This document shows, piece after piece, positions 18,833 to 33,080 of a stretch of DNA of 64,000 bases. The position numbers and the translations under genes are program-made. Location of the stretch: positions 124,001 to 188,000 of the forward strand of contig NZ_CP126159.1 in NCBI RefSeq assembly GCF_030127145.1, written 5' to 3'. Source of the stretch: Halobaculum halobium (lineage in GTDB: Archaea; Halobacteriota; Halobacteria; Halobacteriales; Haloferacaceae). The notes under the pieces are model-generated. The model was not told the origin of the DNA. It saw nothing but the letters and a program-made list of their open reading frames with translations, and made no database searches. Within the stretch, counting starts at the first letter, position 1. Every line of letters begins with the position of its first letter.

Positions 18833-19822
18833 ATCGTGAATACGGTCATGTCAATCATAATGTTGCTGAGCCCCCAGATAGCAGGTGACAGTACCCTGTA
18901 CAACCTCGGGGGATAGAATCGATGTGTGCCTTCTTTTCGGTTATATTAGTACAGAACTGGCTGCCCTGTACGTCTGCGTATCGTGCACAATACCGATCCA
19001 GAGATTCGAGAGGTGAATCGGTCAGTCCATCCCCATACGAAACACTGGGTTGCGCATCAGGGCGAACCACATCTGTATATCGATATACGGTATATATCTG
19101 AGCGTGGTTGTCGGTCAGTCTTGGTGTTTGTCTCGCTGTGGTATCGAAGACGCATCTCCGAGACTGTGAGGTCGGCGTGCGGTTCGAATGCAGTCAGACG
19201 CACGACGAATTCTGCCGAAATCACCAAATCGTGGTTGAGCCATCGAAGCCATAGCTGTCTCGCTCACGTTTTCGAGTCAAGTTCGATGCGAATGCCGTAC
19301 TCCTGACAACACGCGCGAGCTATGGTGGGCAGGTTGAACGCCCAAACTATCCCGTGACTTCTCATTCATCCTGGCTGACCGTGTGTCTCCAGCACCTCAA
19401 TCAATTGCCCGCGTACACCGTCGTCACGCTTTCCTCGTCGAACCGTTCATCGAGACAGCATACCAGCGTGTTCTGTGCGTGGTCACGGCGAGTTTCCCGC
19501 TGTCCGTACAACCGTCGGATCCGTTCAACGAAGGGCTACTTTACGGAGTTTCAATTGTAGGTGGAATTAGCCGCCTAGATCGCAAAGCAGCTGCGCAACC
19601 CTCAACGCTAGTACAGATCAGGATGCTACCTTAGAGTAGTTAGCTATGCCAGCTATTGTATCTATTTAACCTATCTCACCGATTGTTGCTGTTTTGAATA
19701 GTATTCGGACGCGTATGTTTGCGAGACTTGTTGACGTGGAGATGGAACAACTTGTGCTCGAACGCGCTTCAGCCTAGTTCGCACCGTTAAAAACCTCAGG
19801 TGCCTATCGTACGAGTATTACT
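18833..19822. other. Long AT-richer non-coding stretch upstream of the par locus
   Basis: About 1 kb with only poor, Ser/Arg-rich frames. GC content is clearly lower than in the flanking genes, particularly from 19640 on, where the motif AGCTA recurs. No gene, tRNA or transposase is recognised. Confidence 0.5.
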
Positions 19823-19885
19823 TGAGATGGCTAGAGTACCTGAGGTAGCTGAGGTAGCTGAGATAGCTGACTAGGATGAGCTATA
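19823..19885. repeat. 9-bp tandem array (candidate parS/operator)
   Basis: Seven consecutive 9-bp units can be aligned: tgagatggc, tagagtacc, tgaggtagc, tgaggtagc, tgagatagc, tgactagga, tgagctata. The middle three are nearly identical. The 10-mer GGTAGCTGAG within it recurs in inverted orientation as CTCAGCTACC at 20071-20080, close to the parA start. Tandem short iterons upstream of parA are typical for partition-protein binding sites and autoregulation in plasmids. Binding is inferred. Confidence 0.55.
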
Positions 19886-20021
19886 TAAGCTATCTTAGAT
19901 TTCTGGCTCAGATGTCTTGCGCACCTTCTTGTATGATGGATCTATATATGAGATCACGAGCAGGCATCCTGAGGGGTCGACTCGAGTCAGGCCACAGGCG
20001 CTAGCGAACCAGTCGGGATCT

Positions 20022-20043
20022 GCACCTATTGTAAAATAGGTGC
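20022..20043. promoter_or_regulatory. Perfect hairpin upstream of parA
   Basis: GCACCTATT and AATAGGTGC form a 9-bp perfect stem with a GTAA loop, about 80 bp before the parA ATG and between the 9-bp array and its inverted copy. It could be a dyad operator, part of the centromere, or a transcription terminator or attenuator. Confidence 0.5.
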
Positions 20044-20070
20044 GGAAGCTGAACGAGGTGTGATACCTTG

Positions 20071-20080
20071 CTCAGCTACC
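20071..20080. promoter_or_regulatory. Inverted copy of the partition repeat next to parA
   Basis: CTCAGCTACC is the exact reverse complement of GGTAGCTGAG from the array at 19841-19860. It lies 43 bp before the parA ATG, where a repressor would overlap the promoter. Confidence 0.45.
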
Positions 20081-20123
20081 TAACTCAAACAGAGACCCCT
20101 TCGAGGCCTGTAACGGTGACACC

Positions 20124-21014
20124 ATGTCCGAAACAGACACACAATCGCGTGCCGTCGCGGTCGGCGTCCTCAAAGGCGGCTTCGCGAAGACGACGACCGC
20201 GATCAACCTCGCCCGCGAGTTGGCACACCGCAACGAGACCGCACTCGTCATCGACCTCGACGACAACGGGCACATGACGCAGAATCTCGGTTTCATCGAA
20301 GAGTACGAGGCCGAGACGAACCATGTCCATGAAGTGCTCCTCGAGGATAGCGATCCGCGCGAGGCGATCGTCTCGGTCGTCGACGGCCTGGATCTTCTCC
20401 CTGCACACCAGGATCTCGAGGACGTCCAGACACAGCTGAAGAACGCGATGGGTGGCTCGACGCGATTGAACACAAGGGTCGTCGAGCCGCTACTCGAAGA
20501 CGAATACGACTATATCGTCGTTGATTGCCCCGCCAATCAGGGGAAACTCAACGAGAACGCACTGTACGCGACGAACAACCTCATCATTCCCGTTCGCCCC
20601 GAAACGGGGTACGACTCAGGGATACACAACACCGTCAATCGACTGGTGAAGGAAGCACGCCAGTACTTTGAGTTAGACATCCTCGCGGTGGTTCCATCGG
20701 GCTTATCCCAGCGTCTCGATCAGGATCGACGCGACCGTGCGCTGTTAGAGGAGATTAACTCGATGGAGATTGCCGACTCTGTCGTTCCGAATTTTTGTCG
20801 GATCTCAGACGACGACTGGGCGGCGATCGACGAGGGAACGTACGACGGTCCACTTCCCGGAATCCGGTATCGGTCAGCGATCGACGACGCCAACGACGCG
20901 GGACTTCCGCTGCGTGATTACGATGACACGTGTGATCAGCTCCCCGCTTACGGGGAATTAGCGGCGATCGTCGAAACTGGCGGTGTTGTCCGCGAACGCG
21001 AGGTGATGGTCTGA
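20124..21014 (+). CDS. parA: ParA-type partition ATPase
   Basis: A 296-residue deviant-Walker ATPase. The P-loop is KGGFAKTT (17-24) with the signature lysine at 17; VIDLDDNGHMTQNLG corresponds to the Walker A' segment and YDYIVVDCPANQG to Walker B. ParA proteins form ATP-dependent gradients on the nucleoid that segregate low-copy replicons. There is no N-terminal HTH, so it is of the short (type Ib or chromosomal-like) kind, and the adjacent small gene probably supplies DNA binding. Upstream lie the 9-bp array, the hairpin and the inverted repeat; downstream the partner gene overlaps it (TGATG). The start at ATG 20124 gives the usual N-terminal length. Confidence 0.9.
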   Translation: MSETDTQSRAVAVGVLKGGFAKTTTAINLARELAHRNETALVIDLDDNGHMTQNLGFIEEYEAETNHVHEVLLEDSDPREAIVSVVDGLDLLPAHQDLEDVQTQLKNAMGGSTRLNTRVVEPLLEDEYDYIVVDCPANQGKLNENALYATNNLIIPVRPETGYDSGIHNTVNRLVKEARQYFELDILAVVPSGLSQRLDQDRRDRALLEEINSMEIADSVVPNFCRISDDDWAAIDEGTYDGPLPGIRYRSAIDDANDAGLPLRDYDDTCDQLPAYGELAAIVETGGVVREREVMV

Positions 21015-21466
21015 TGGCGTTTGACGACTTAGACCAAGCCGAACAAACCGAGGCTGACACAACTGAGACTTCGGATGCTGCGGAGGAACACCGCGAGTCG
21101 GTCGTCGAGGACGATCAGCCGACGGATTCAGATTCTCACGTAGAGGACTACTCCTCGGACGACGACCCGGAGTCATCTGCCGGGGCTGGTGGAGACACGG
21201 TGGCAGGTTCGGAACCGGCGTTCGGGTTCGAGGAAGCGAAACAACGCCCGTTGTACGCACGTCAGCGGGCGTGGGACGCGTTCGAGGACGCACTCGCGAT
21301 CGATGTCGAACCGACGCTGCGCCGCCACGATATCCGGGACGCGTCGAAGCGGGAGCTCCACGACGCGGCGCTTCGGGTGCTCGCAGACCACCCTGAGGAA
21401 GTCGCAGACAAGGTTTTGGCCGCTAGAGGAGTCAGCTCAGATGTTGACGGCGACCCCCATCAATAA
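21014..21466 (+). CDS. Partner protein of ParA (candidate centromere-binding protein)
   Basis: A 150-residue protein whose ATG overlaps the parA stop (TGATG), so translation is coupled. The first 70 residues are an extremely acidic, low-complexity tail (TDSDSHVEDYSSDDDPESS and similar). The folded part starts at about FGFEEAKQRPLYARQRAWDA and continues as three helices to the C-terminus. The position after parA matches small ParB-like adaptor proteins of haloarchaeal plasmids, but no ParB nuclease or HTH motif is visible. Role inferred from context. Confidence 0.75.
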   Translation: MAFDDLDQAEQTEADTTETSDAAEEHRESVVEDDQPTDSDSHVEDYSSDDDPESSAGAGGDTVAGSEPAFGFEEAKQRPLYARQRAWDAFEDALAIDVEPTLRRHDIRDASKRELHDAALRVLADHPEEVADKVLAARGVSSDVDGDPHQ

Positions 21467-31811: not shown

Positions 31812-33080
31812 TCAGTTGCCCGAGGCGAAGTCCGTGACTCGGGCGTCGGTCATCTCGTCGCTCGGGTCGTCCACGAGAAACTCTTTTACCGAGCGGTGGA
31901 CGCCGACGTCCTGTACCGTGTCCGACATCGCGTCAAGAACCAGGTCGACGTCCATGTCGAGCGCGTACTCTCGGTAGGTGCCGCCGCGGCGCCCCTCGTT
32001 GCGTTCGGTCACCGAGATGATACCCAACATCGCCAGCTCCGAGAGGTGATCGCGCATGCGACGGGGGACGAGTGGATCGCGGTCGGCCATTTCGGCAAAC
32101 CGAGAGTATCGCGGGCGGACGTCTCGCGACCGCACGGGAGCCTCGTTTTCGAGGTCGAGAGTGAGGAGCGCGTAAAGGACAAGATGGCCGTGCTGGGTCA
32201 ACCCGGTGATCCCCTCCTTGATCCTGCCACGTTCGAGCGCGCGCCGTCCGCGTTCGACGTGCGCTTCGGCGACTCGTTCGGTATCGTCGTCGCGGGCGAG
32301 ATCGCCAGCTTTCATCAGGAGGTCGATCGACTGGCGGGCGTCGCCTGCGTCCTTCGCGCCGTAGGCGGCACACAGTGGAATGACACCAGGGTCGAGGACG
32401 CCCTCGTGGAACGCGACCTCGACGCGTTGTTCGAGGATCTTCTGGAGGTCCGTAGCGTCGTATGCGGGGAAGTGGATCTCCTGTTCACACAGCGAGGATC
32501 GGACCTTGGGGGAGAGATCGTCGCGGAAAGAGAAGTCGTTGGAGATGCCGACGATCCCGACCTTGGCCGTCGAAAGATTCCCGTTCGCGCGAGCGCGCGG
32601 TAACTGGTAGAGGATCGAGTCGTCTTCGACGTGGTCGACCTCGTCGAGGACGATGAGGATAGTCCCGCCACAGATGTCGAGTTCGTCCCAAAGCATCTCG
32701 TAGACGCTTGCTCTCGGATAGCCGGTGGTAGAGATCTGCTCGGTGTCGTCGCGAAACTCGTTGACGAGCCGGGTTGCGACCTGGTACGACGAGGTGAGCC
32801 CGTCGCAGTTGAGCGCGACGACAGTGAGCTCGATATCGTCGTACTGTGCAGCGTCTTCTTGGAGGTGCTCCAAGAGATATCGTGTCGCTGCAGTCTTCCC
32901 CACTCCCGTCTTCCCGTAAAGGAAGACGTTGTTTGGTTGCTCCCCGTTGATCACCGGTTGGAGCGCGGCTCGGTAGGTGTCGAGTTCCTCGTCGCGACCA
33001 ACCAACTGCTCCGGCTGATAATCCTCACGGAGAGCGTCACGGTCGCGGTAGATGTCTGTGTCCCGCTCGAACATCCCCAT
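31812..33080 (-). CDS. orc: Orc1/Cdc6 replication initiator
   Basis: A 422-residue AAA+ initiator. Walker A is YGKTGVGKTAA (GKTGVGKT 56-63), Walker B is VLDEVDH (LDEVD 145-149), sensor 1 is GISNDFSFRDDL, and the lid contains GDARQSIDLL. The winged-helix DNA-binding domain occupies about residues 300-400 (HGHLVLYALLTLDLENEAPV, RRMRDHLSELAMLGIISVTE). It binds origin repeats and loads MCM. Fifteen copies of one repeat type surround the gene, so this protein is the likely binder. ATG 33080 or the Met two codons later could be the start; TATA-like GTTTTATCA lies about 33 bp upstream. Confidence 0.95.
   Translation of the reverse strand: MGMFERDTDIYRDRDALREDYQPEQLVGRDEELDTYRAALQPVINGEQPNNVFLYGKTGVGKTAATRYLLEHLQEDAAQYDDIELTVVALNCDGLTSSYQVATRLVNEFRDDTEQISTTGYPRASVYEMLWDELDICGGTILIVLDEVDHVEDDSILYQLPRARANGNLSTAKVGIVGISNDFSFRDDLSPKVRSSLCEQEIHFPAYDATDLQKILEQRVEVAFHEGVLDPGVIPLCAAYGAKDAGDARQSIDLLMKAGDLARDDDTERVAEAHVERGRRALERGRIKEGITGLTQHGHLVLYALLTLDLENEAPVRSRDVRPRYSRFAEMADRDPLVPRRMRDHLSELAMLGIISVTERNEGRRGGTYREYALDMDVDLVLDAMSDTVQDVGVHRSVKEFLVDDPSDEMTDARVTDFASGN

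Follow-up and report, generated by a model that had tools for sequence, protein, structure and literature searches.

A 64-kb stretch of DNA from Halobaculum halobium (hereafter, the window), which is part of C2, the second replicon (463,690 bp) of a haloarchaeal genome made up of three contigs (3.46 Mb in total), was found to contain a parA gene, an overlapping gene encoding a small acidic partner protein and, directly upstream, three arrays of tandem 9-bp repeats. We consider it probable (approximately 0.77) that these elements form the two-gene partition (par) module of this 464-kb replicon, in which the acidic partner would be the centromere-binding protein acting on the tandem 9-bp site. 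On our best reading, ParA and a partner that binds a centromere of tandem repeats make up a partition system, which may work like the delta/omega system of plasmid pSM19035 or like SegAB, and like type Ib ParABS systems. A first-pass annotation of the window had proposed a centromere or operator before parA and a partner of an unrecognized family as the candidate DNA-binding component, both of which are supported, as candidates, by the comparative evidence presented below.

The parA gene (20124–21014, forward strand) encodes a 296-aa ParA ATPase (AAA_31, E = 3.3e-33), for which the nearest solved structures are ParA/Soj-like proteins. Its AAA_31/ParA domain carries the deviant Walker A motif of partition ATPases (KGGxxK[T/S]; here KGGFAKT at residue 17), as well as a Walker B motif (DCPAN). 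The protein has no N-terminal helix-turn-helix (HTH) extension and, over the 44 related loci described below, the Walker A motif was found at a median position of residue 17, as in type Ib systems, whose ParA lacks an N-terminal HTH. The partner gene (21014–21466, forward strand) starts at the final base of the stop codon of parA, and this one-base overlap bears out the gene arrangement described previously. It encodes a 150-aa protein with an acidic tail and an N-terminal FDDL motif. The cassette thus has a small partner downstream of parA in the same operon, and the correlation between repeat motif and partner described below suggests that this partner binds DNA.

The repeats were delimited using a 9-bp hidden Markov model (HMM), trained on eight other Halobaculum loci with the window excluded from training. 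Array I, the most distal (19614–19694), is composed of nine 9-bp units (posterior 0.85–1.0); array II (19792–19926) contains about fifteen units (posterior 0.6–1.0) close to the palindromic SCTNAGST; and array III (20037–20081), the nearest to parA, contains five units (posterior 0.98–1.0), includes an inverted repeat (20044–20059/20065–20080), and ends 42 bp before the parA start codon. Overall, about 29 units are distributed over approximately 470 bp, and this model detected none elsewhere in the window: the score reached 40 nats at the arrays, with a 99th percentile of −0.9 elsewhere and values below 3 in all tiles off the arrays. The seven tandem units that were first noticed, from 19837 to 19899 (TACCTGAGG TAGCTGAGG TAGCTGAGA TAGCTGACT AGGATGAGC TATATAAGC TATCTTAGA), are present within array II; their extent had been underestimated, since the arrays begin about 200 bp earlier, at 19614, and comprise about 29 units. 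Two further elements had been described. The inverted copy is exact over 11 nt (19843–19853/20071–20081) and, because the unit itself is dyad-symmetric, corresponds to one more unit of array III. The hairpin at 20022–20043 does have a perfect 9-bp stem (20022–20030/20035–20043) with a 4-nt loop, extending to 12 nt at 92% in a repeat search, but was not conserved in the relatives in which it was looked for. Neither was retained as a separate operator element.

The period of 9 bp was also evident from the letters themselves. In the 450 bp upstream of parA, 9 was the best of all periods from 5 to 15 (z = 7.3 versus dinucleotide shuffles), as scored by self-matches at 9, 18, 27, and 36 bp. In coding DNA, every multiple of 3, including 9, is inflated. 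Plain period-9 statistics were therefore rejected as sufficient evidence, and the excess of z9 over z6 and z12 was used instead. Indeed, the upstream regions of some ordinary chromosomal ParA/MinD genes also peak at 9, 12, or 15. The tile at 19576 had a z9 excess of 7.7, the largest among the 283 tiles of the window, with a next value outside the array region of 3.2. Moreover, the pattern CTNAG-N4-CTNAG-N4-CTNAG occurred at a single site in the 3.46-Mb genome, which is the array in the window. These results confirm that the 9-bp array exceeds chance expectation.

The first-pass annotation had recommended comparing the upstream regions of parA from other haloarchaeal replicons. Two sets of loci were assembled: one by ParA similarity (twenty plasmid records and three genome loci, chosen blind to repeats), and one by partner similarity (30 loci, several of which overlap with the first set). 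Among the 44 loci used, all selected by protein similarity alone, the order of the parA and partner genes was retained in every case, 9 bp was the dominant period of the tandem short-repeat site upstream of parA in 43, and the excess of 9 over codon periods was at least 2 in 42. Of the 391 Halobacteria genomes sampled, 206 (in 56 of 86 genera) contained the partner family, for the most part next to a plasmid-borne parA; the genome studied here has a single copy. It looks halophile-specific, because all matches in a sample of the phylum fall within the same order; no close relatives were found in viral contigs. In six stretches (L116, L124, L138, L140, L142, and L143), partner homologs were observed with no ParA reading frame in the stretch examined; these would be either contig ends or solo partners.

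The period remained constant at 9, whereas the letters of the arrays varied by clade (CTNAG, GATTCGTAC, TCTACTGTG, and other types). CTNAG-based, near-palindromic units were observed in Halobaculum, Halolamina, Haloarcula, Halorussus vallis, and others; RCGATTCKT units in the Haladaptatus group, whose array letters are of the GATTCGTAC type; RCANWYKGT units in Halorussus aquaticus; CTACTGT-type units in Halobacterium PHS3; ACWKT-type units in Halalkalicoccus and Natronorubrum; and RMAMAKTSY units in Haloferax marinum. Since sites with different letters share the same period, we suggest that dimer–dimer contacts set the spacing. The residues of a putative β-strand in the partner also differed between clades (KQRPLYARQ, VQAQIYPRK, LRRSIYARE, TQHSIYCLP, TQFPFYVRE, and TAKSIYVRD). 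In 51 loci with mutual domain identity below 92%, motif distance was correlated with strand distance (r = 0.45, p = 0.0005), and a partial Mantel test controlling for the remainder of the domain still gave 0.25 (p = 0.0005).

Motifs derived from one locus scored 30–114 nats on the array of a partner with the same or a similar strand in another genome for most pairs, with one weak pair at 8.8 nats. Motif self-scores are inflated, as the motifs are trained on themselves, and shuffled sequences scored 17 on average with a maximum of 23; loci under about 40 nats are therefore considered weak. Within eight genomes carrying two to four copies of the cassette, the motif of one copy usually did not match the co-resident arrays (median −1.8 nats). 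The one clear exception was L137 versus L129, whose strands are near-identical; different strands within a cell went with arrays that did not match. Based on these comparisons, plasmids that share a cell appear to carry different addresses.

More distantly related cassettes were also identified. The third replicon of the genome (C3) carries a distinct ParA (L001, G000:C3, minus strand, 1240–2151) and a distinct 150-aa acidic partner (ATIYVEPEQ...), with TGAATCAG-like repeats upstream at 8-bp spacing; the best period was 8 in all 19 close relatives of this cassette. A third partner family, with a TIYIPDD... strand, was observed in other haloarchaea (L105–L115), where its gene follows that of a ParA carrying a VDIDYHGGL motif, and a more distant set, mostly of this family, had a period of 9 in 10 of 11 loci. 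The period therefore follows the partner in the window family (family A, 9 bp) and in the C3 family (family B, 8 bp). In profile comparisons, the C3 and TIYIPDD families matched each other at 93%, and each matched the window family more weakly, at 25% (30 column-shuffled controls, ≤0.9%). We tentatively propose, at slightly less than even odds, a haloarchaeal superfamily of two-gene cassettes whose partners would be either a new family of DNA-binding proteins or a new branch of ribbon-helix-helix (RHH) proteins, reading a lattice centromere; spacing (9 or 8 bp) would be set by the family, and identity would be encoded by letters that a short strand reads, so that the several plasmids and minichromosomes sharing a cell would each have an orthogonal, readable address code.

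The partner itself gave nothing meaningful in searches against Pfam, NCBIfam, and PDB sequences, and neither the ParB CTPase nor the HTH domain of type Ia ParABS systems was detected with Pfam or NCBIfam, in agreement with the earlier view that it lacks a recognizable ParB domain. In all 44 loci, the tail of the partner starts with an FDDL-like motif; the median net charge of the tail is −18.5. The C-terminal domain (residues 68–143; 21215–21442, forward strand), which is supported by alignments and by the covariation of strand and array, has a conserved frame in which xQxxIYxR, here the putative β-strand KQRPLYARQ, is followed by helices. We propose that this domain is the DNA-binding part. 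By eye, it follows a strand-helix-helix plan like that of RHH proteins such as omega, and an RHH fold is suspected. The DNA-binding component had been thought to be possibly new: the family is indeed unrecognized, although the domain may be of no new kind, because its pattern resembles RHH.

In the mechanism that we envisage, a dimer of the C-terminal domain would bind one 9-bp unit, with the short β-strand reading its letters, and neighboring dimers would align along the tandem units to form a helical nucleoprotein array. The loaded 9-bp lattice might then present many flexible, acidic FDDL tails to nucleoid-bound ParA-ATP; contact with these tails would trigger ATP hydrolysis by ParA, and sister plasmids would be separated. 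Repression of the operon is probably a further role of the proximal units. The packing of neighboring dimers would fix the spacing while the letters drift together with the strand; the 9-bp period could therefore be conserved as letters change, and each replicon could acquire an identity of its own.

Several results weigh against this interpretation. The reverse partial Mantel test, rest of the domain given strand, was equally strong (0.23), which leaves the strand a good candidate reader without setting it apart as the sole one. No Lys or Arg comparable to that of the omega and ParG tails was conserved across the 44 loci, and 22 of the 44 tails had no Lys/Arg in their first 25 residues. AlphaFold2 models of the whole partner and of the domain, built with four sequences, contained helices only and no strand (mean pLDDT 55–62), and a Foldseek search with this low-confidence model gave no match. 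Likewise, hhalign comparison with real haloarchaeal RHH proteins (RHH_1-type) gave 0.1%; this negative is uninformative, because the same test recovered the known RHH protein omega, used as a positive control, at only 0.2–21%. Finally, at four loci in a group of relatives (L051, L052, L058, and L064), the cassette is located on megabase-size contigs (1.1–2.9 Mb), suggesting integration or a chromosomal role.

Among the alternatives, the arrays could serve the parA operon solely as an operator, with the partner as a repressor and partition relying on another site or on none. The arrays do adjoin parA, array III stops 42 bp before its start codon, and small partners in type Ib systems usually autoregulate. 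However, 29 or so units across 470 bp exceed the needs of an operator, and co-resident copies differ in their letters, as replicon identity predicts; moreover, the operator and centromere roles are compatible with each other. We therefore regard an operator-only function as unlikely.

Still less probable is the interpretation of the repeats as replication iterons for an initiator (Orc1/Cdc6 or Rep), next to parA by chance. Plasmid iterons are common near par genes, and orc1 lies within about 2.5 kb in 4 of 20 plasmid loci; the other 16 have no annotated initiator within this distance. On the replicon studied here, the nearest Orc1 is represented by the Cdc6_C domain of an Orc1/Cdc6 initiator at 31929–32213 (reverse strand; G000:C2:155929–156213), about 11 kb from parA. 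Furthermore, both the period (9 in family A, 8 in family B) and the letters follow the partner. Non-functional tandem repeats produced by slippage in intergenic DNA, to which the degenerate units and the three near-identical neighbors could point, are highly implausible, as slippage would neither fix the period across clades nor tie it to a protein family, and exactly 9 bp was kept in 43 of 44 loci despite different letters.

The putative partition module can be compared with several known systems. ParF/ParG of TP228 (type Ib) has the same gene order, a ParA without HTH, and a small partner with a flexible N-terminus; the haloarchaeal cassette differs in its centromere repeats, and its partner is similar to no named family. 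The omega and ParG tails carry a conserved basic residue by which ParA is stimulated, in contrast with the strongly acidic tail observed here. The delta/omega system of pSM19035 (type Ib ParABS) shares with the cassette a short ParA without HTH extension, a small partner, and contiguous short repeats. On pSM19035, ParB (omega) binds contiguous 7-bp repeats located in promoter regions in mixed orientation, with one RHH dimer on each, and full activation of ParA needs at least four contiguous repeats (PMC9499535). Here, the units are largely dyad-symmetric, with clade-specific letters, the acidic tail bears FDDL, and sequence similarity to omega is undetectable; membership in the delta/omega group was rejected on the period (9 or 8 rather than 7 bp) and on the tail (no conserved basic residue). 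Among archaeal systems, SegB, which acts in chromosome partition in Sulfolobales, is an RHH protein with a flexible N-terminus and a C-terminal RHH domain, and its sites lie upstream of segAB (PMC12284271, PMC5120986). Sites upstream of the cassette are a shared feature; the 13-bp palindromes used by SegB are dispersed on a chromosome and differ from a 9-bp lattice on plasmids. AspA-ParB-ParA of the Sulfolobus plasmid pNOB8 is likewise an archaeal plasmid ParA system, but has three genes, including the centromere binder AspA and a ParB with a CENP-A-like domain (PMC5120986, PMC9178275), whereas two genes and another partner are found here.

The literature searched covers SegAB and pNOB8 from Sulfolobus; neither a haloarchaeal plasmid centromere nor this partner family was described in this open-access literature, although an earlier description is possible in subscription papers, which were outside the search. 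Almost no work has addressed the way in which haloarchaeal cells keep several large, low-copy replicons separate. The present analysis names a specific candidate centromere and binding protein for about half of the sampled haloarchaea. Further sites could be found by a simple rule, namely a lattice of 9 or 8 bp in front of parA, and the compatibility of megaplasmids residing in one cell receives an explanation that can be tested. These results would also be of use in the construction of stable haloarchaeal vectors.

A 23-bp block (CAGATGTCTTGCGYACCTTCTTG; 19909–19931, forward strand) overlapping the end of array II is conserved within Halobaculum. It was detected once in each of 9 of the 11 Halobaculum genomes (≤2 mismatches) and in neither of the other two, and the Halobaculum-type partner is carried by exactly these nine genomes. 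The block is near-invariant, with a conservation far above that of the rest of the parA upstream region. A leader peptide was considered less likely than a DNA or RNA site, since conservation of the reading frame extends, by eye, over no more than about 11 codons. Elsewhere in the genome, three RHH matches on the first contig (G000:C1:69583, 2785600, and 2807702) had identical scores and 73-aa frames, and probably lie on a repeated mobile element.
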